From a virus: a stretch of 34,922 nucleotides of DNA. The DNA lies in the IMG/VR virus record IMGVR_UViG_3300024288_000005, positions 1 to 34,922 of that record. One strand, given 5' to 3'. Numbering within the stretch: the stretch's first letter is position 1; the number at the start of each line of letters is the position of its first letter. The translations under genes were made by a program, and so were the position numbers. The notes beneath the pieces are model-generated. The model was given only the letters and a program-made list of their open reading frames with translations, did not search any database and was not told the DNA's origin. Shown in pieces: positions 3,291 through 34,045 of this stretch.

Positions 3291-3461
3291 ATGTTAAATA
3301 GAGCTCTGAGTGGTGTTGAAGCACAAAAGTTTGTAGCATGGTTAACGATGATAAAGGGATTTTTGCCAAAGAGTATGACAATTTCTGAAGCGCAAGAGAT
3401 TTTTATGAGAAAGAGAAGTGAAGAGAAAAATGAAAAAAAAGACGAACGAAAAGCAGGTTAA
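3291..3461 (+). CDS. Hypothetical small basic protein, 56 aa
   Basis: The frame begins MLNRALSGVEAQKFVAWLTM with AAAAGGAATTAAATT as ribosome site, three bases after the preceding stop, and ends in a Lys/Glu-rich tail. The first 40 residues look like a short helical domain. It fills the space between the 68-aa gene and the nuclease gene. Function unknown. Confidence 0.55.
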   Translation: MLNRALSGVEAQKFVAWLTMIKGFLPKSMTISEAQEIFMRKRSEEKNEKKDERKAG

Positions 3462-3505
3462 TATCAGAGATAAAGCTGGGATGCTAGAAATCTTAAAAGG
3501 ATTAC

Positions 3506-3913
3506 ATGATGGGGCCAAGGATGGTCAAGCGATTAGCGATACCGAGCGAGAGCCAGGAACAAAGATGGCTGGTAAAGTGGCTAACTGTCCATCCAAAGCT
3601 TAAGGATTTCTTTTGTAAGAATACTAATGAGGGAAAACGAACGCCCGCGCAAACCTGGAATCTTAAGTTACTAGGTTTGCGTCCTGGTGTTAGTGACTTA
3701 CTAATAGCTTTCCCTAGTAAAAGCGGTTGTTATGCAGGCCTGTGGCTGGAGGTTAAGCGTGCAATGCGATATCCTCCATCAGCCATGAAATCAGATACTT
3801 GGTTAGCGCAGGTAGAATGGGTAGAGCGCATGAAAACTGTGGGTTTCGATGCGCAATTTTGCTATGGATGGGTGCATGGTAAGGAAATTATTGAACGCTA
3901 TTTACTTTCTTAA
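3506..3913 (+). CDS. VRR-NUC domain nuclease, 135 aa
   Basis: The sequence carries the PD-(D/E)XK-type VRR-NUC pattern: GLRPGVSDLLIAF (about 56-68, catalytic Asp), GLWLEVKRA (about 77-85, Glu-x-Lys), then Q..WVERMKTVGFDAQFCYGW and a C-terminal IIERYLL helix. Stand-alone VRR-NUC proteins are small structure-specific nucleases, related to Holliday-junction resolvases, and often sit next to phage replication genes as here. The likely role is resolving branched DNA before packaging. ATG 3506 is preceded by AAAAGG. A competing frame at 3418-3603 overlaps its start and is probably not translated. Confidence 0.75.
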   Translation: MMGPRMVKRLAIPSESQEQRWLVKWLTVHPKLKDFFCKNTNEGKRTPAQTWNLKLLGLRPGVSDLLIAFPSKSGCYAGLWLEVKRAMRYPPSAMKSDTWLAQVEWVERMKTVGFDAQFCYGWVHGKEIIERYLLS

Positions 3914-27969: not shown

Positions 27970-28525
27970 TTATCTGCTCCATTGCTTTATATATGGTCGC
28001 CCTAGAAACGTTCATGTCCTTTGCAATGCTTCGTATGGATTGACAATTTTCTAGTTTGCCTTTGACAACCTCTCTAAATTTATTGTCAACTTTGTTAGGT
28101 CTACCTAAATGTTTTCCTGCCTTCTTTGCGGCATCTATTCCATCACGTTGACGACTTCTTATCATAGTTCGCTCAAACTCTGCGAAAGCACCCATCATCT
28201 GCAACATAAGAATGGACATCGCATCATTGTCACCTGTAAACACGAGGCCCTCTTTTAAAAACTTAACAATAACACCTTTGTCTTTAAGGATGACAAGTAT
28301 GTTTTGCAAATCTCGAAGGTTCCTAGCGAGCCTATCAATACTGTCAATAACAAGAGTATCTCCCTTACGAACATACGCTATGCACTCTTTCAGTTTCTCG
28401 CGCTCTAAGTTACTTCCAGTAACTTTGTCTGTGAATTCCATATCTACTTTAATCCCTTGTAATTGTCTGGCTGTATTCTGTCCTTGTGATGATACACGTA
28501 CATAGCCCACCGTCTGGTTGCTCAT
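27959..28525 (-). CDS. Small serine recombinase (resolvase/invertase family), 188 aa
   Basis: The N-terminal catalytic domain has VGYVRVSSQ (6-14) with nucleophile Ser12, DTLVIDSIDRLARNLRDL with the conserved Arg residues, and FAEFERTMIRSRQRDGI (about 113-129). The C-terminus carries the helix-turn-helix SIRSIAKDMNVSRATIYKAM. Length matches Hin/Gin/TnpR enzymes. Such enzymes invert or resolve DNA between short sites. Its place about 650 bases from the fibre genes suggests fibre inversion; resolving multimers of a plasmid prophage is the alternative. It is too small for a large serine integrase. Confidence 0.9.
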   Translation of the reverse strand: MSNQTVGYVRVSSQGQNTARQLQGIKVDMEFTDKVTGSNLEREKLKECIAYVRKGDTLVIDSIDRLARNLRDLQNILVILKDKGVIVKFLKEGLVFTGDNDAMSILMLQMMGAFAEFERTMIRSRQRDGIDAAKKAGKHLGRPNKVDNKFREVVKGKLENCQSIRSIAKDMNVSRATIYKAMEQINER

Positions 28526-28548
28526 GGGTATTATTATTATCCTATAAA

Positions 28549-28572
28549 AATTTATTTTTATTTTAATAAATT
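28549..28572. promoter_or_regulatory. Inverted repeat upstream of the recombinase
   Basis: AATTTATT (28549-28556) and AATAAATT (28565-28572) are perfect inverted arms eight bases apart in the 53-base gap before the recombinase gene. Resolvase genes often have their recombination or operator site here. The low base complexity means chance is a real alternative. Confidence 0.3.
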
Positions 28573-28578
28573 ACTAAA

Positions 28579-28845
28579 TTAACCTTCAAACTCGTCTTGT
28601 GCTAATGAATGAATTTTATACGGTCTACATTTATCATTATCTGTACCTATTAATTCTTTAAGTTCTAAAATAAGAGAGTCAATTGTCACATAAAGATTCC
28701 TTGCCCCATTAACCACTAAATAATATATAGGGTCTTTATGAGTACTTAAAAAATCGATTGATATAACAAAACTTTTACCTGTTAAAATGTAGTATTCTTC
28801 AATAAGACTATGTGCAATTTTTATCTTTTCTATATCTATTTCCAT
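28579..28845 (-). CDS. Hypothetical protein, 88 aa
   Basis: MEIDIEKIKIAHSLIEEYYI and onward: alternating helix and strand segments with an acidic C-terminal stretch (IGTDNDKCRPYKIHSLAQD). It follows the small membrane protein gene after nine bases. I do not recognise the family. Confidence 0.55.
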   Translation of the reverse strand: MEIDIEKIKIAHSLIEEYYILTGKSFVISIDFLSTHKDPIYYLVVNGARNLYVTIDSLILELKELIGTDNDKCRPYKIHSLAQDEFEG

Positions 28846-28854
28846 TATTATTCC

Positions 28855-29034
28855 TTACCAAAATTTTAATATAAAATGAATTATCATATATATGATCGCT
28901 ACTGGAGCAAATAAAATAAAAAGCACCACAATAGTTTCAAGCTTGTCGTATAAAAACGAATAAATACAATTATATATCTTATTATTTAGTCGTAATCTAA
29001 CGTGGATTTTTCGCGCTTTAGTAAAAGTATTCAT
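28855..29034 (-). CDS. Membrane protein sharing the SR-cluster N-terminal motif, 59 aa
   Basis: The product begins MNTFTKARKIHVRLRLNNKI, basic as in the SR genes upstream, with Lys at position 6. From about 33 to 58 it has one or two hydrophobic spans (TIVVLFILFAPVAIIYMIIH, then FILKFW). The ATG overlaps the stop of SR gene 7 (ATGA), so it is the eighth cistron of the same run. It has no SR repeat. A membrane anchor or lysis-related function for the cluster is possible; it is inference. Confidence 0.6.
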   Translation of the reverse strand: MNTFTKARKIHVRLRLNNKIYNCIYSFLYDKLETIVVLFILFAPVAIIYMIIHFILKFW

Positions 29035-29231
29035 TTTAATTCCCGAAAAATAGATTTAAACCTAGATATAGATTTATACTTATTCCCAGACCATGACTCT
29101 GCCATTGATGCAGAACCACACGCTGACCAAGACCAATATCTGTAAGTAGGACGAAATGCAGAGCAATATGCAGAGTTAGAATTAGATCCAAATACTGAAC
29201 CTATACTCCCTGTTTTAAGTGAGCTAATCAT
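29031..29231 (-). CDS. Ser-rich dipeptide-repeat protein SR7, 66 aa
   Basis: The start at 29231 (MISSLKTGSIGSVFGSN) forms an ATGA overlap with SR6; a start 15 bases upstream exists but breaks this pattern. The most degenerate member: Ser, Trp, Arg, Tyr and Gly alternate (YRYWSWSACGSASMAESWS, about 29-47), ending SISRFKSIFRELK. Its neighbours and motif mark it as part of the SR family. Function unknown. Confidence 0.6.
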   Translation of the reverse strand: MISSLKTGSIGSVFGSNSNSAYCSAFRPTYRYWSWSACGSASMAESWSGNKYKSISRFKSIFRELK

Positions 29232-29449
29232 TTTGATACTCTGCAATAATCAGATCTGGATATAGATAATGACCTGCGCATAAATCCAGATATACCCCTA
29301 GAAAACGACATAGTCCAATGGTCAGATTCAGACCTATACTTAGGTTCAGAAAAAGACACAGACCAAGATCTAGACCAATATCCAGATTCTGATCCAGACC
29401 AAGACGAAGATCTAGGTAACGCTGAACTAACTTTAAGTGAGCTATTCAT
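29228..29449 (-). CDS. Ser-Arg/Trp dipeptide-repeat protein SR6, 73 aa
   Basis: N-terminal motif MNSSLKVSSALPRSS, then alternating Ser-X (SWSGSESGYWSRSWSVSFSE, about 16-35), and an Arg/Ser tail (MRRSLSISRSDYC). The segment encoding GSESGYW is shared by 30 identical bases with SR4 (29375-29404 and 29811-29840), showing copying between genes. Starts two bases after the stop of SR5. Strongly basic, no fold predicted from sequence. Confidence 0.65.
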   Translation of the reverse strand: MNSSLKVSSALPRSSSWSGSESGYWSRSWSVSFSEPKYRSESDHWTMSFSRGISGFMRRSLSISRSDYCRVSK

Positions 29450-29451
29450 AT

Positions 29452-29655
29452 TTATTCTCTAACATAATTAGATCTATATCTAGACAAAGACCTAGACCTA
29501 GACTTAGATAAAGAACCAGATTCAGACAAAAACATAGGCGGAGAAAAAGACTTAGACCAAGATATAGACCAATAACCAGACCTTGATCCACATCCAGATC
29601 TTTGTGCAAAAAAATTACAAGGTAATTCTGCTCGTGATTTTATACAGATACTCAT
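29452..29655 (-). CDS. Ser-Arg dipeptide-repeat protein SR5, 67 aa
   Basis: N-terminal MSICIKSRAELPCNFFAQ, then RSGCGSRSGYWSISWSKSFS (about 19-38), SESGSLSKSRSRSLSRYRS and end NYVRE. It shares the order GYW...SWS...SFS...SES with SR6. ATGA overlap with SR4. Serine is nearly always TCT, giving hexanucleotide periodicity. Confidence 0.65.
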   Translation of the reverse strand: MSICIKSRAELPCNFFAQRSGCGSRSGYWSISWSKSFSPPMFLSESGSLSKSRSRSLSRYRSNYVRE

Positions 29656-29891
29656 ATTGACTCTCTATGATAATTAGATCTAGACCCAGATTTAGACCCA
29701 GAGCTAGACCTAGATCTAGATCTAGAATTAGAGCTAAACTTAGAGCTATACCTAGACCAAGACCTAGACACAGACCTAGACACAGAACTAGACCTAGACC
29801 TAGACCTATACCAATATCCAGATTCTGATCCAGACCAAGACCAATACAAAGATCCATAAAACATTGCTCGCGCTTTTATAGCGTTATTCAT
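29652..29891 (-). CDS. Ser-Arg dipeptide-repeat protein SR4, 79 aa
   Basis: N-terminal MNNAIKARAMFYGSLYWSWS, then SGSESGYWYRSRSRSSSVSR (about 20-39) and an almost pure Ser-Arg/Ser run (SNSRSRSRSSSGSKSGSRS) to NYHRESI. The clearest SR protein of the set, resembling eukaryotic RS domains and serine-rich protamines in composition. ATGA overlap with SR3. The frame is preferred over a competing Gly-Leu frame because all seven genes share this frame, motif and overlap. Confidence 0.65.
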   Translation of the reverse strand: MNNAIKARAMFYGSLYWSWSGSESGYWYRSRSRSSSVSRSVSRSWSRYSSKFSSNSRSRSRSSSGSKSGSRSNYHRESI

Positions 29892-30181
29892 TTTAATTTT
29901 CTCTCAAACATAGACCAAGGCCAAGACCTGGATCGGGACCAAGATCTATCCCTAGAAAAATTCCTGGAAAAATAACTAGTCCAAGAACCAGAAATAGACA
30001 TATCTTTCGAACTAGACTTAGACCAACAAACAGAGCTAGGCCTAGCACAAGTTCTGTATCTAGACCAACACTTAGATCTAGAAAAAGACCCTGATATAGA
30101 CTTAGACATAGACCACGATCTAGACTTAGACTTCCATGTAGTAATGCAAGCTGCATTCACAACTTTTGTAGAGTTATTCAT
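29888..30181 (-). CDS. Ser-Arg dipeptide-repeat protein SR3, 97 aa
   Basis: Longest member. N-terminal MNNSTKVVNAACITTWKSKS, then two SR tracts (about 17-41; about 70-92, NFSRDRSWSRSRSWPWSM) separated by CARPSSVCWSKSSSKDMSIS. Ends FERKLK. Starts two bases after the stop of SR2. Two Cys in the middle (about 46 and 53) could pair. Function unknown. Confidence 0.65.
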   Translation of the reverse strand: MNNSTKVVNAACITTWKSKSRSWSMSKSISGSFSRSKCWSRYRTCARPSSVCWSKSSSKDMSISGSWTSYFSRNFSRDRSWSRSRSWPWSMFERKLK

Positions 30182-30183
30182 CT

Positions 30184-30369
30184 TTATTTCCTATCATAAT
30201 AAGATCTAGGTCTAGACTTAGACCTAACCAAAGACCCAGACAAAGACCCAGACCAAGATCGAGACAAAGATCTAGACCAACACCTAGGTATAGACCTAGA
30301 CTTAGACAAAGATCTAGATATAGACCTAGGTGTGAATAACAGTATTAATATCTTTGAAGCAATAATCAT
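30184..30369 (-). CDS. Ser-Arg dipeptide-repeat protein SR2, 61 aa
   Basis: N-terminal MIIASKILILLFTPRS is more hydrophobic than in other members and may bury in a membrane or another protein. Then SISRSLSKSRSIPRCWSRSL (about 16-35), WSGSLSGSLVRSKSRPRS and end YYDRK. ATGA overlap with SR1. Confidence 0.6.
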   Translation of the reverse strand: MIIASKILILLFTPRSISRSLSKSRSIPRCWSRSLSRSWSGSLSGSLVRSKSRPRSYYDRK

Positions 30370-30533
30370 ATTGACCCTGTATCATAATCAGATATAGATC
30401 TAGATAAAGAACTAGACCTAGACCAAGCCCCAGAACCAGACCAAGACCCAGATCCACACCAAGAAATAGACCTAGACCTAGAAAAAGATCTATCCATAGA
30501 AACCATTCCTATTGCCCTTGAACAAACAATCAT
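30366..30533 (-). CDS. Ser-Arg/Gly dipeptide-repeat protein SR1, 55 aa
   Basis: First gene of the run, starting in an ATGA overlap with the beta protein gene at 30530-30859, so the beta protein and the SR genes are translationally coupled. Sequence: MIVCSRAIGMVSMDRSFSRS, then SWCGSGSWSGSGAWSRSSSL, end DYDTGSI. Arg replaces Lys at position 6. This frame is short, so it is easily missed by gene finders. Confidence 0.6.
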   Translation of the reverse strand: MIVCSRAIGMVSMDRSFSRSRSISWCGSGSWSGSGAWSRSSSLSRSISDYDTGSI

Positions 30534-30859
30534 TTTGATTTATCAGGCAATGAATGAGACCATACAGTTGCGTCAACAATAGAATCTCTATTTACAATTA
30601 CGTCATTAGGAAAAACTTCTACTTCGTCAAGTGTTCCTTTTTCAAGAGCTACATGAAATCTACCACTATCCGCAACCCAGGAAGCATTTGACAACAGCAG
30701 CTCTTTGTCAGTGATCTTTTCTAACCTACCGACGAGATGCATTGTGACTGTTCGTATGAAATATTTTTCATTCAAAACCCATAGCGAATTGTCGGAATTT
30801 CCTTTTGCAGAAAATACACTAGCTAACTTCATTAGTTCACTTACTTTTAAATCTTCCAA
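30530..30859 (-). CDS. Beta-type protein B of the repeat-protein module, 109 aa (TTG start)
   Basis: The core YFIRTVTMHLVGRLEKITDK (33-52), ELLLSNASWVADSGRFHVAL (53-72), VEVFPNDVIV (80-89) and IVDATVW (94-100) aligns with the protein at 33542-33892: both have Y-x-(V)-I-x-R-T, G-x-L, a hydrophobic 'A' position, a Gly/Ala segment, FP and a final A-x-W. They are probably homologues with a small beta-barrel-like fold. I recall similar proteins in many phages, function unknown. The start is TTG at 30859 with AAGGGG six bases upstream. Its stop overlaps SR1. Confidence 0.7.
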   Translation of the reverse strand: MEDLKVSELMKLASVFSAKGNSDNSLWVLNEKYFIRTVTMHLVGRLEKITDKELLLSNASWVADSGRFHVALEKGTLDEVEVFPNDVIVNRDSIVDATVWSHSLPDKSK

Positions 30860-30906
30860 TTTTTTCCCCTTTTTTAAGATAACTTGCTGTTAGTTCTTTC
30901 GAAATA

Positions 30907-31098
30907 TTAAGCATTATAAAAATTCGCGCACTTCTTGCAATATTGAATTAAAATAACTTTATACTTGTCACCGTTTTTTTTCACCATGGGCCAATCGAAA
31001 GCTTTCTCATGCTGGCATTTATTTTTTTTTTCAAAAGGCTCATACTCACTATCGCTTTTATAATCATGAAATTTATTAAACTTTAAGAAGATGCCCAT
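30907..31098 (-). CDS. Small zinc-binding protein, 63 aa
   Basis: KCQHEKAF (27-34) and YCKKCANFY (53-61) provide Cys/His ligands for one zinc, with a beta segment between (DKYKVILIQ). The N-terminal part is acidic. Similar in plan to the 73-aa protein upstream. I do not recognise a family. Confidence 0.55.
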   Translation of the reverse strand: MGIFLKFNKFHDYKSDSEYEPFEKKNKCQHEKAFDWPMVKKNGDKYKVILIQYCKKCANFYNA

Positions 31099-31113
31099 AT
31101 AATTAATCCTGTC

Positions 31114-31335
31114 TTAATCAATATAATATTCTCCGCAGTTTTTGCATTTATATTCTGCTTGAAGCTCTATATGGCGTCCATCTGGAACATGATTACAATA
31201 TACTTTAATCATAGTTTCAATTTTACCAATTAGATTATTGAGCTCATCCAAAGTTTGAATATTTTTGCAATCTACTGGACTATTCATTACACAAAATCTT
31301 AATTTATTAAGTTCATCTATATTTAAATAAGTCAT
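31114..31335 (-). CDS. Small zinc-binding protein, 73 aa
   Basis: An N-terminal helical part (LNIDELNKLRFCVMNSP, then ELNNLIGKIETMIKVY) leads to CNHVPDGRHIELQAEYKCKN, then CGEYY; CxH and CxxC are likely zinc ligands. It has its own promoter/operator-like region upstream (31364-31394) and a good RBS GGAGATTAAAAT. Confidence 0.55.
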   Translation of the reverse strand: MTYLNIDELNKLRFCVMNSPVDCKNIQTLDELNNLIGKIETMIKVYCNHVPDGRHIELQAEYKCKNCGEYYID

Positions 31336-31363
31336 ATTTTAATCTCCATATCTACTAATATAC

Positions 31364-31394
31364 ATACCTTATTATACATTGTCAATAAAGGTAT
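31364..31394 (-). promoter_or_regulatory. Promoter/operator candidate with TACCTT inverted repeat
   Basis: ATACCTT (31364-31370) and AAGGTAT (31388-31394) are perfect inverted arms. A TATAAT (complement of 31371-31376) lies between them in the direction of the downstream leftward genes. The half-site recurs as AAGGT-AC-ACCTT (31445-31456) and TACCTT (31652-31657), each within AATGTA-(N)-TAAGGTA. A regulator site shared by the three gaps is likely; which protein binds is unknown, the ribbon-helix-helix protein at 743 being one candidate. Confidence 0.4.
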
Positions 31395-31454
31395 CGAAAA
31401 TAATTTATTACATCCCTACTTTTGACTTTATAAAGAATGTAAGTAAGGTACACC

Positions 31455-31616
31455 TTAAAACCATCCCTCATGAGTAGGATTCAGCTTTTTACATCGGGTA
31501 CAAAAAAACTTGTCTGGCATACGTTGTTCATATAAAGGCTCATACCCGCCAAACTTGTGACCCAATAAAAAACAAAGGAATCGTTCAATCATGTTGCTGA
31601 ACTTTTTCATTATCAT
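31455..31616 (-). CDS. Small zinc-binding protein, DUF1660-like layout, 53 aa
   Basis: The start at 31616 (MIMKKFSNMIERFLCFLLGHK) was chosen because GGAGA lies six bases upstream; an ATG at 31640 lacks one. A hydrophobic helix with 'CFLLGHKFGG' (about 14-23) is followed by FFCTRCKKLNP (CxxC, about 38-41). The 'LLGHK...CxRC' layout resembles small phage proteins such as DUF1660, a tentative match. It would bind one zinc through Cys and His. Confidence 0.55.
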   Translation of the reverse strand: MIMKKFSNMIERFLCFLLGHKFGGYEPLYEQRMPDKFFCTRCKKLNPTHEGWF

Positions 31617-31719
31617 TCTGCGTCTCCGTTGGTTCACCATAAAAATATGCGTACCTTATTTACATTGTGGGCCAATCTTATTATATCCATATGAAATACC
31701 TTCCGGCCCCTTGTTATTA

Positions 31720-31980
31720 TTAATATTCGAGCAAGTCTAAATATTTCTTTCTTGCATCTATTAACCCTTTTAAGTATCCATCTTCCCAGTCAGTGTTATA
31801 CATATGAGATATTTGTCTGCTTACAGTTTCATTCATCCAATGCAGGAACACATCTCCTTTTGCCGGACAAAATTTAATAGCATGCCTATCTGTTGCAACT
31901 TTTGAAATTTCATCTCTTGTTATTTGTCCTCTTGCATACATTGATCTTGCATACTCTTCGCACTCTTTACATGCATTCAT
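31720..31980 (-). CDS. Hypothetical protein, 86 aa
   Basis: Helical, charged protein with an N-terminal CKECEEYARSMYARGQI (4-20) and a C-terminal WEDGYLKGLIDARKKYLDLL. A single CxxC near the start could bind metal with a further Cys. It follows the Tad2-like gene after ten bases. I do not recognise it. Confidence 0.6.
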   Translation of the reverse strand: MNACKECEEYARSMYARGQITRDEISKVATDRHAIKFCPAKGDVFLHWMNETVSRQISHMYNTDWEDGYLKGLIDARKKYLDLLEY

Positions 31981-31990
31981 GATGGAATCC

Positions 31991-32377
31991 TTATATTAGG
32001 TCGTCAATAATCCAGTCTGTGGCAGAAAATGCTTCGAATGACGGGATAAATGGGAATGCTTCCATCATATGTATAACAAGACGTCCTGTGTTTTTATCAA
32101 GAAATATAAAAGAGCGATCCCAATCCTTCATTGCTGCTTTTTTATCTTTTTGCAAGAACGGGATTATTTCACAAAAATTGTACTCAGTTGTATTATCCCC
32201 TTCGATGATCCAACCGTTTGAAACCATGATTCCTTCGTCATAAGTATATTCTCTTAGTCTCGGCTGGAATGATGTCACATTTCCATCTTGATAAAAAAAA
32301 TACAGGCTCCCTTTCCAAGAATCCCTCGTTACTGGTACTCCGGATTTCAGCAAATCCATTGCTTCGCAAAAGTTCAT
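31991..32377 (-). CDS. Tad2-like (DUF2829) protein, possible anti-Thoeris, 128 aa
   Basis: MNFCEAMDLLKSGVPVTRDS followed by WKG is a near-perfect DUF2829 start ('MxFxEAlxxLkxGxxVxRxxW'). The end FEAFSATDWIIDD (about 113-125) carries the closing 'DW'. The central part (about 40-110) is longer than in typical members. Tad2 proteins bind Thoeris signal molecules. This copy sits in the leftward, probably early, arm, a better setting for an anti-defence role than the copy at 9200. It follows the SSB-like gene by 13 bases. Confidence 0.6.
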   Translation of the reverse strand: MNFCEAMDLLKSGVPVTRDSWKGSLYFFYQDGNVTSFQPRLREYTYDEGIMVSNGWIIEGDNTTEYNFCEIIPFLQKDKKAAMKDWDRSFIFLDKNTGRLVIHMMEAFPFIPSFEAFSATDWIIDDLI

Positions 32378-32390
32378 TTATATATCCCTG

Positions 32391-32912
32391 TTAATAAGTA
32401 GGTAAGTCAAAGTCGGTATTAAACTTTGTAGACTCATTGTTATGTTGTGTGGTTTGTGTTGATTTGCTTAACTCAGCGAGTGGCGACGATCTTTTTACAT
32501 ACTCACTAATTTTATTCTTGTCCGGATATTTGCTACCTATTGGCTTTCCATTAAGCTTTCCTTCTGGAATTTCTTTCCCGTCTTCTACTTTAATTTCTAC
32601 TACTACGCGCTTGTCCACGGCAATTTTAGAGCACAGAGTTCCTTTCAAGTAATCTTCTGTTATTCCCGCAGAATCTGAGAAATGAACTACTTTCCACATC
32701 ATGTTTTTTGTGAATACTAGGAAGTCCCTTATTTCATGCGCTTTTCCGTTGTCATCATAGACAGTCACCAAGATGTCCATCATTGGGTTTCCGCTGGAAG
32801 ATTTAGTATCTAAGGATGATGTTACAACACCTTCGTAAATCCCCTCTTTCATTAGTTGAAAACGTTCTGCCATAGCCTCTTGCTCTGTCAATACTTCATA
32901 TGAAAATCCCAT
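32391..32912 (-). CDS. Single-stranded DNA-binding-like protein (DUF669 type), 173 aa
   Basis: The segment LMKEGIYEGVVTSSLDTKSS, then PMMDILVTVYDDNGKAHEI and VVVEIKVEDGKEI is the OB-like layout of phage DUF669/SSB-type proteins. A disordered linker (about 138-160) leads to the C-terminal tip NTDFDLPTY, acidic-hydrophobic as in bacterial SSB tails that recruit partners. It shares the operon with a Sak4-like ATPase, a combination expected for phage recombination or replication on ssDNA. RBS AAAGGAGAAATATAAA. Confidence 0.65.
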   Translation of the reverse strand: MGFSYEVLTEQEAMAERFQLMKEGIYEGVVTSSLDTKSSSGNPMMDILVTVYDDNGKAHEIRDFLVFTKNMMWKVVHFSDSAGITEDYLKGTLCSKIAVDKRVVVEIKVEDGKEIPEGKLNGKPIGSKYPDKNKISEYVKRSSPLAELSKSTQTTQHNNESTKFNTDFDLPTY

Positions 32913-32961
32913 TTTATATTTCTCCTTTAGTTAAAATTTTATTTATCATGATTAGATTATT

Positions 32962-33294
32962 TTATTCACAACAACCGCATCCGTATTCGGACCCCATTGC
33001 ACATGCATCTCCAGATCCCCATCCAAATCCTGAGTCGTATCCGAATCCAGAGCAGCTGCGATCAAGCCCATGCCCGTTTCCATGATATGTTCCGCTACAT
33101 GATCCAATTCCGGATCCATCTCCGAATCCATTTTCATAACCATCCATAATTCCATCTTCTATCCCATCTCCAGATCCATTTCCAGAGCCTGATGCATTAC
33201 CTGATCCGTTATGTTTTCGGTAATTGCTTTCATAAACATAATCAATACGGTAATTTTTTTCGTAATCTTCATCATCCTCTTCTACTATGTACAT
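32962..33294 (-). CDS. Acidic Gly-rich dipeptide-repeat protein, 110 aa
   Basis: N-terminal acidic part (MYIVEEDDEDYEKNYRIDYV) leads to a Gly-X run (NGSGNASGSGNGSGDGIEDG, about 29-48, and onward) and a Cys/Gly end (EYGCGCCE). Gly alternates with Ser, Asp, Asn and Tyr in a hexanucleotide rhythm, as the SR genes do with Ser and Arg. It overlaps the upstream Gly-rich gene by one base (TAATG). Acidic, so opposite in charge to the SR proteins. Function unknown. Confidence 0.65.
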   Translation of the reverse strand: MYIVEEDDEDYEKNYRIDYVYESNYRKHNGSGNASGSGNGSGDGIEDGIMDGYENGFGDGSGIGSCSGTYHGNGHGLDRSCSGFGYDSGFGWGSGDACAMGSEYGCGCCE

Positions 33295-33554
33295 TACATA
33301 ATCCTATATATATTGTCTTCACCGCATGCATATCCATATCCTTTGAAGCCTCCTTCTCCAGAATAGTTACTAATACCGCGACCCTCACCCGTACCATCAC
33401 CTGATCCGTGCCCTGACCCTTCATGGAATCCTAAAAATATTTCTCCTGAATAATCACCTAAACCTCTTCCATCTTCAGAACCACATCCCGAGACATTTCC
33501 GCCGCCAAATCCTGAAACATTTCCGCCTCCTAATCCAAAATCTACTGTTTCCAT
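33294..33554 (-). CDS. Acidic Gly-rich dipeptide-repeat protein, 86 aa
   Basis: METVDFGLGGGNVSGFGGGN followed by repeats of GNVSG and HGSGDGTGEGRG (about 49-60), ending CGEDNIYRIM. It starts within the last 13 bases of the beta protein gene at 33542, paralleling the way SR1 starts in the end of protein B. Gly-Ser-Asp-rich, acidic, presumably disordered. Confidence 0.65.
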   Translation of the reverse strand: METVDFGLGGGNVSGFGGGNVSGCGSEDGRGLGDYSGEIFLGFHEGSGHGSGDGTGEGRGISNYSGEGGFKGYGYACGEDNIYRIM

Positions 33555-33892
33555 ATAGCCACACTAGCGATAGATACTCGCGCTTCTTCTGTAGCATTTA
33601 TTATTTCAATGGCACCTAACAATTTGATTTTTTCTACTTCGCAAGGAAATTTGCAGTTTTCAGGTCTTTTTACACCCTCCATTGCCAGCTGGCTTAATGA
33701 TGATGCACCATCCCAGTACCACAATCTTCTGGCGTCAGTTAAGTTAACTTCTGTGCAGTCTTTTCCATAAGACTCTAGATATCCCGCAAAACAACCAGCA
33801 GAGTAAGTGCGCACTATTACGTATTGTTTTGAATCAGTGGATTCTTTTTTTATATATGTCTCGCCATTAACTACTATTTTATTTTTATTCAT
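33542..33892 (-). CDS. Beta-type protein A of the repeat-protein module, DUF6948-like, 116 aa
   Basis: YVIVRTYSAGCFAGYLES (24-41), NLTDARRLWYWDGASSLSQL (50-69), EGVKRPENCKFPCEVEKIKL (72-91) and ATEEARVSIASVAIW (100-114). I recall this pattern as DUF6948, common in phages, function unknown. It aligns with protein B (30530-30859): Y-x-I-x-R-T, G-x-L, 'A...W', FP and final A-x-W. Both head a run of dipeptide-repeat genes. It follows the 44-aa gene by 18 bases. Confidence 0.7.
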   Translation of the reverse strand: MNKNKIVVNGETYIKKESTDSKQYVIVRTYSAGCFAGYLESYGKDCTEVNLTDARRLWYWDGASSLSQLAMEGVKRPENCKFPCEVEKIKLLGAIEIINATEEARVSIASVAIWKQ

Positions 33893-33910
33893 TTTATATC
33901 CTTTGTTGAT

Positions 33911-34045
33911 TTATGATTTCAGGTCAATAATTTCCCGCATGGTTTTAATTAAATCTGCATCCATACGCATTAGCCTTAAAAGACCTTGGGTAAATTCCCG
34001 CAATTCTTCAACTTCAAGTTCTTCTATATTAATGTCTAAGTCCAT
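33911..34045 (-). CDS. Small acidic coiled-coil protein, 44 aa
   Basis: MDLDINIEELEVEELREFTQ then GLLRLMRMDADLIKTMREII: one long amphipathic, acidic helix. Its ATG overlaps the ATPase stop (TAATG). It could bind the ATPase or dimerise; function unknown. Confidence 0.55.
   Translation of the reverse strand: MDLDINIEELEVEELREFTQGLLRLMRMDADLIKTMREIIDLKS

Follow-up and report, generated by a model that had tools for sequence, protein, structure and literature searches.

Sm and LSm proteins, among them SmAP1 (1i8f), SmG (4f7u) and Lsm1-7, share the Sm-type small beta barrel, and some eukaryotic Sm proteins bear Arg-Gly tails. Eukaryotic SR/RS-domain and RG-rich proteins provide a second point of comparison, through their Ser/Arg alternation and basic low complexity; an SR/RS protein is recognised by an RNA-recognition domain together with an RS domain. 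A survey of prokaryotes and phages found low-complexity proteins in half of the phage proteomes covered, and the low-complexity regions to be strongly depleted in Arg, Cys and aromatic residues (PMC6821194). In Iodobacter phage phiPLPE a DNA repeat, (KMGCCG)35 at 46,046-46,255, has been listed and was speculated to be an attachment site (PMC3391216). The open-access literature yielded no paper on Ser-X strings or on the family DUF6948 (PF22253), and nothing relevant on phage-encoded Sm-like proteins.

Here we describe a cassette, in a 34,922-nucleotide stretch of viral DNA (the window), in which a gene for a predicted Sm-fold protein is followed by seven genes for proteins of alternating Ser and a variable residue, X. 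The first protein shares with Sm/LSm proteins the predicted small beta barrel, but its strands 3 and 4 are separated by a helical insert, it is acidic and phage-encoded, its sequence has no detectable similarity to the LSM or Hfq families, and its low-complexity chain is encoded by a separate gene. The Ser-X proteins resemble SR/RS and RG-rich proteins in their Ser/Arg alternation and basic low complexity, but no RNA-recognition domain was found in them, which sets them outside the SR/RS class, and Arg makes up about one third of X, with Trp equally common. In contrast to the low-complexity regions surveyed previously (PMC6821194), Arg and Trp dominate X. The layout of a predicted Sm-fold gene followed by a dipeptide-repeat gene is shared with DUF6948 phages such as phiPLPE (gp84), Pectobacterium phage Koroua (CDS0033/CDS0032) and Chlorobiaceae phage CV-1-33 (genes 26/25), although there the repeat is Gly-[Ser/Asp/Tyr] and acidic, and the genes are annotated as hypothetical.

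Results

Seven Ser-X genes are coupled to a small globular gene

The phage is P22-like as judged by its portal (PF16510). On the minus strand, a run of nine genes from 30859 to 28855 encodes a 109 aa globular protein, seven Ser-X proteins and a 59 aa probable membrane protein, and its eight junctions consist of six ATGA overlaps and two 2-base gaps. The globular protein (30530-30859) is read from a TTG start, with an ATG at 30832, and its gene shares an ATGA overlap with SX1 (30366-30533; 55 aa, net charge +3). SX2 (30184-30369; 61 aa, +13) overlaps SX1 in the same manner, SX3 (29888-30181; 97 aa, +17) follows after 2 bases, and SX4 (29652-29891; 79 aa, +13) and SX5 (29452-29655; 67 aa, +8) are joined by ATGA overlaps to SX3 and SX4, respectively. 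SX6 (29228-29449; 73 aa, +6) lies behind the second 2-base gap, and SX7 (29031-29231; 66 aa from an ATG overlapping the SX6 stop, +7) is the most degenerate of the series. A final ATGA overlap ties SX7 to the gene at 28855-29034, whose product reads as a probable membrane protein from a hydrophobic stretch in its sequence.

Each Ser-X protein consists of a leader of around 10-20 residues, the Ser-X run and a short tail (for example ...SNYHRESI or ...SDYCRVSK), within which lies the putative ribosome-binding region for the gene that follows. The leaders are similar to one another (MNNAIKAR.., MNNSTKVV.., MNSSLKVS.., MISSLKTG..), so that the seven genes look like tandem paralogues. The 59 aa protein begins MNTFTKAR, similar to these leaders (MNNAIKAR in SX4).

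The initial annotation had called seven stop-start-coupled minus-strand frames of 55-97 aa at 30533-29031, and all are present. Its five ATGA overlaps and two gaps are obtained if one flank is counted, but the seven genes alone have four ATGA overlaps and two 2-base gaps. The strongly basic composition that it described was borne out in every protein (net charge +3 to +17), as was the almost exclusive use of TCT for Ser, found in 118 of 157 cases overall and in almost every unit of the regular runs. X had been given as mostly Arg, Trp, Gly or Tyr; these occur, but the range is wider and also takes in Lys, Phe, Ile and Leu.

No domain above cut-off was found in the SX proteins with Pfam or PHROGs (the Pfam RSRP match to SX4 scored 13.2 bits against a cut-off of 27, E 0.07), and Rfam gave no match over 28500-34000. 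A search with the single sequence of SX3 recovered no relative because the arrays do not align, and codon-spacing patterns were therefore needed.

The upstream gene encodes a predicted Sm-fold protein

Comparison of flanks with the repeats masked revealed a block of 200-290 bases just 5' of the Ser-X genes in unrelated contigs. The block encodes a small protein of two related kinds, kind A with the motif VTLFCxxYIYTGKLVGVNDTCVKLEDAxIVYETG and kind B, to which the window gene at 30530-30859 belongs, with the motif FIRTVTxHxVGxV...ASWVADSGRF. The two kinds are homologous (hhalign E 5e-8 over 73 columns). Neither matched any Pfam family (none at E up to 1 for the window gene), and in PHROGs the only matches were weak ones to families without an assigned function, the strongest being E 0.005 for the window gene.

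AlphaFold2, run on 58 aligned relatives, predicted the structure of the upstream product with a pLDDT of 91.7, and a Foldseek comparison of the model with the PDB placed Sm/LSm chains at 49 of the top 50 positions (best E 1.2e-3, prob 1.00, TMt up to 0.81). In a second look with VIA all 50 entries shown were Sm/LSm, with a Z of 10.0 and an rmsd of 1.5 over 64 residues to 1i8f_C. The predicted structure is thus that of an Sm-type small beta barrel. Profile matching to LSM and Hfq revealed no recognisable Sm1/Sm2 motif, an hhalign comparison with two Hfq sequences gave P 0.39 and no direct sequence link, and a search of the PDB by sequence returned no meaningful match. We therefore use the name Sm-fold rather than assigning the protein to the Sm family; that this acidic protein may bind RNA is an analogy drawn from the fold.

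Sm-fold and Ser-X genes are linked in hundreds of phages

Codon-spacing scans of IMG/VR, in collections that are mostly metagenomic, identified at least 116 loci with at least 216 Ser-X genes, at least 39 of these loci having a tandem array of two or more. Ordinary Glu/Lys linkers, picked up in an incorrect frame, were filtered out of the first matches. The highest number among the matches listed was 15 tandem Ser-X genes behind one Sm-fold gene (L034, 5862-9337, minus strand). The leaders at that locus are close to MITKRSRWRR in nearly all of the Ser-X genes. HMM searches found 80 Sm-fold genes in Ser-X-pattern loci; for 79 of them a Ser-X gene had been called at the locus, and the remaining locus (L204) has a Ser-X gene too.

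The linkage was also examined in reverse, with a profile of kind B alone and no use of the repeat, an alignment of all kinds being too diverse. This profile found 350 relatives in IMG/VR, the best 80 of which were kept, and five in GTDB genomes, all of them metagenome-assembled bins; 73 of the 85 loci were usable, with at least 200 bases downstream. A Ser-X gene (in one case Thr-X) lies directly downstream in 68 of these 73, a figure that carries a mild bias from a profile built on Ser-X-linked members; seven loci (L342, L344, L361, L399, L417, L420 and L423) were settled by closer inspection. Among the five exceptions, L354 still has the leader with a small number of units and L397 may have a remnant, but no trace is present at L392, L400 or L421. 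Of 71 junctions between the Sm-fold stop and the Ser-X start, 41 are ATGA overlaps and a further 11 overlap by one base, and the linkage spans phages of 30-68% GC with different Ser codons. Two annotated metagenomic phage records, MW202825 and MW202573, have the same gene order, and in MW202825 both the Sm-fold gene and the first Ser-X gene were left unannotated.

No constant third neighbour was found, the 145 neighbouring proteins matching 55 assorted Pfam families. Ser-X-linked Sm-fold proteins have a median net charge of -3 (94% are negative), and Ser-X proteins one of +10.

Some loci depart from the usual arrangement. In L374 (2-466, plus strand) Thr/Pro-Gly repeats precede the Sm-fold part in the same open frame, perhaps as a fusion, and in L359 (2717-2968, plus strand) a single frame switches from Gly-X to Ser-X, a chimera of both repeat types. 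Four loci (L359, L361, L386 and L417) were flagged as having both types.

The Ser-X frame is under selection as protein

Within the runs of the window, TGG occurs 26 times at X and TGA never, alongside balanced AGG:AGA (27:25) and GGG:GGA (10:11). This absence of TGA, together with the recurrence of the gene type in IMG/VR, indicates that the frame is more than chance. A shuffle test on the two most regular arrays of the window was underpowered (0 stops against 2.5 expected, 217 of 5000 shuffles being stop-free). Over 198 distinct arrays from 113 loci, 12 stops were observed at X against approximately 127 expected (minimum 107) when the three codon columns were shuffled within each array. Copies within an array are not independent, so the avoidance of stops is strong but yields no clean probability.

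In the pattern-scan set the hexamer is TCT-NGG, and X is Gly in 1459, Trp in 1413 and Arg in 1403 of 4962 units. The mostly silent positions 3 and 6 are near-invariant, and the amino-acid-changing position 4 varies freely. Near-fixed silent positions alone resembled a DNA element, and an independent test was therefore needed. In loci chosen without reference to the repeat DNA, Ser is encoded by TCT (1096), TCG (880), AGC (451), TCA (356), TCC (50) and AGT (12). The Ser codon is almost always single within a phage and differs between phages, with X mostly NGG (Arg, Trp or Gly), and the route from TCN to AGC passes through a non-Ser intermediate if the two bases are not substituted simultaneously. 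For Arg, most phages use AGG and others use CGG, and in L373 (about 3300-3526) Thr-[Arg/Trp/Gly] replaces Ser-X behind the same Sm-fold gene with the X set unchanged. The amino-acid pattern is kept while the DNA is re-made, which argues that selection acts on the protein. Conservation of a nucleotide repeat independently of the reading frame, as expected of a DNA repeat or attachment site, was not observed, and the switching of Ser between AGC and TCN with the peptide kept rules out the hexamer as a DNA element. The uniform codons within arrays reflect local repeat amplification, which also shapes the arrays.

The leaders are likewise under protein-level constraint (pS 0.70, pN 0.18 over 78 pairs selected at 60% identity or above), and the pattern M..(.)..[RK]xG is matched by 27 of 66, where shuffling predicts 1.1. 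The order of Arg, Trp and Gly along the chains is near-random (adjacency ratios 0.93-1.10), as expected of a sticker-spacer polymer and not of a folded protein.

Two further candidates, both in other reading frames, were rejected. An overlapping Leu-Gly gene in the +1 frame turns into Ala-Gly when Ser is AGC and so is not conserved; that frame is open by default, since TCT-NNN reads there as CTN-NNT, in which no stop codon can arise. Of the five other frames, two are interrupted by considerably more than a thousand stops in the arrays, and none has a conserved start. A target of a diversity-generating retroelement would show changes directed at adenines, alongside a template repeat and a reverse transcriptase. 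Here most arrays use A, G or T at the variable base, others use C, G or T but not A, and entire blocks differ; judged from these features, an origin by such an element is not favoured.

The arrays are hypervariable and the cassette is accessory

Phages with near-identical flanks differ throughout their arrays. Between L210 and L243 (flanks 99.8% identical), and between L260 and L290 (98.9%), the leaders are kept but the number, length and order of the units differ, with exchange of blocks. The close relatives of the window as judged by the neighbouring ATPase (44-87% identity) carry resolvase, Tad2-like and SSB genes where the locus extends, and none has a Ser-X array. The Ser-X cassette is accessory and fast evolving.

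A second Sm-fold gene heads acidic Gly-X genes

The same leftward region encodes a second unit. The minus-strand gene at 33542-33892 belongs to DUF6948 (PF22253, E 4e-29; 101 bits against a gathering cut-off of 27) and is followed on that strand by two Gly-X genes, GX1 (33294-33554; 86 aa, net charge -8), which overlaps it, and GX2 (32962-33294; 110 aa, net charge -15). Relative to the relatives, these three genes form an insertion between the ATPase and SSB genes. AlphaFold2 on eight DUF6948 sequences gave a pLDDT of 90.7, and the best matches of the model were Sm/LSm or spliceosome chains. A Tad2-like (Thoeris anti-defence 2) Pfam match (E 6e-11) lies in the same leftward region, at 31991-32377 on the minus strand.

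Gly-X genes follow DUF6948 in all eight of the first loci, which were found by the repeat pattern, and in all five annotated phage records inspected from a DUF6948-only search, among them phages phiPLPE, Koroua, IKEMa6-1 and CV-1-33. In phiPLPE (L427) the (KMGCCG)35 repeat is the Gly-X frame just after the DUF6948 gene gp84. Median net charges are 0 for DUF6948 and -8 for Gly-X. A sequence link between the two Sm-fold families is only suggestive: hhalign aligned the Ser-X partner with DUF6948 at P 2.7e-4 over 35 columns, and kind B alone at P 0.029.

In L132 (388-1143, minus strand), downstream of DUF6948, a Gly-X run is joined to a long globular C-terminal part. PHROG 18306 (242 positions) matches DUF6948 at 152-232 (E 2e-5) and, weakly, Gly-X at 59-131 (E 0.22), a profile suggesting possible fusions of the two.

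The initial annotation had regarded tandem Ser-X genes as unusual in phages, but they proved to be very common in environmental phages. Its proposal of sequence diversification agrees with arrays that are wholly different between phages with ~99% identical flanks, and where it had held that a broken frame with the hexamer retained would count against coding, the opposite was seen, the frame being kept and the hexamer replaced. It overlooked both the Sm-fold gene directly upstream, the defining partner of the cassette, and the acidic Gly-X unit about 2.4 kb away.

Discussion

From the computed coupling, linkage, predicted fold, protein-level selection and variability we infer mutual binding, nucleic-acid binding, assembly and a benefit to the phage. 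We consider it possible, as a tentative reading, that the Ser-X genes are the variable part of an Sm-fold/Ser-X cassette whose acidic Sm-fold protein binds the basic chains, assembling nucleic acid. One Sm/LSm-fold protein would be made first, followed through stop-start coupling by between one and 15 leader-(Ser-X)n proteins, low-complexity chains in which X is mainly Arg, Trp or Gly. The Sm-fold protein would bind the chain through its leader, through charge or through both, charge complementarity being weak support for such binding. Arg and Trp may act as the sticky residues and Ser and Gly as spacers, so that, inside the infected host, the chain would bring RNA or some other nucleic acid together as a multivalent assembly. 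Additional, re-shuffled copies might tune dosage or composition, or evade a host counter-measure. The acidic Gly-[Ser/Asp/Tyr] chains beside DUF6948 could be the opposite-charge counterpart of the same design. A more specific form, in which the Sm fold recruits hypervariable Ser-[Arg/Trp/Gly] chains in trans into an RNA-protein condensate and the genome holds a second Sm-fold/Gly-X pair of opposite charge, is conceivable but rather doubtful.

It is unlikely, in our estimation, that the Ser-X proteins are cationic, Arg/Trp-rich toxic or membrane-active peptides, comparable to synthetic RW antimicrobial peptides, and that the acidic Sm-fold protein serves as their chaperone or antidote. Such a role would be consistent with the presence of Arg and Trp in essentially every array, even where Gly is missing (L379, L411), with a strongly basic chain opposite an acidic partner (medians +10 and -3) that is translated first from the same message, and with the likely membrane protein encoded after SX7. 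However, up to 15 copies and lengths above 100 aa are more than a toxic peptide would need, Ser at nearly half of the residues should weaken membrane activity, and in the parallel unit the Gly-X chains, which are acidic, are not membrane-like.

We are still more sceptical of the idea that the chains are anti-defence decoys, which would bind or clog a host immune protein and escape resistance by variation. The accessory cassette is missing from close relatives, near-identical phages carry wholesale different arrays, and the Tad2-like (anti-Thoeris) gene of the window is about 1.1 kb away. Against this, no consistent defence or anti-defence gene was found among the 145 neighbouring proteins and their 55 assorted Pfam families, and simple repeats change fast without any arms race.

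Hypervariability and a near-random order of X would also be expected if the chains were neutral products of slippage, without function whether expressed or not, and only the Sm-fold gene mattered. This is improbable given a linkage that holds at 68 of 73 loci, in phages that range over 30-68% GC and differ in their Ser codons, the tenfold avoidance of stops, the conserved leader and the tandem duplication of the genes. Most improbable, and as a sole explanation already largely refuted, is a DNA-level repeat element (a recombination hotspot, attachment site or protein-binding array) with an incidental open frame, for although codons are near-uniform within arrays, four-fold degenerate sites included, and the phiPLPE Gly-X repeat has been described purely as DNA, with a suggested role as attachment site (PMC3391216), the Ser codon family (AGC or TCN) switches by phage under a constant peptide pattern, Thr stands in for Ser in L373, stops are avoided tenfold, and the leader and start overlap are conserved.

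Our work has shown that the Sm-fold/Ser-X cassette is widespread, the upstream gene having 350 relatives in IMG/VR, and that it has neither name nor family in the libraries and open-access papers searched. Hundreds of environmental phages thus carry a nameless unit that combines a predicted Sm fold with purpose-made low-complexity proteins, whose Ser-X composition is conserved although the DNA has been repeatedly re-made. The Gly-X version is present in cultured phages, so that experiments are possible now, and for work on low-complexity proteins in bacteria the arrays offer a natural library of minimal Arg/Trp/Ser/Gly polymers with a partner protein. If the condensate reading were true, the assembly would be a phage analogue of the Sm core and RG/RS tails of eukaryotic RNA granules.
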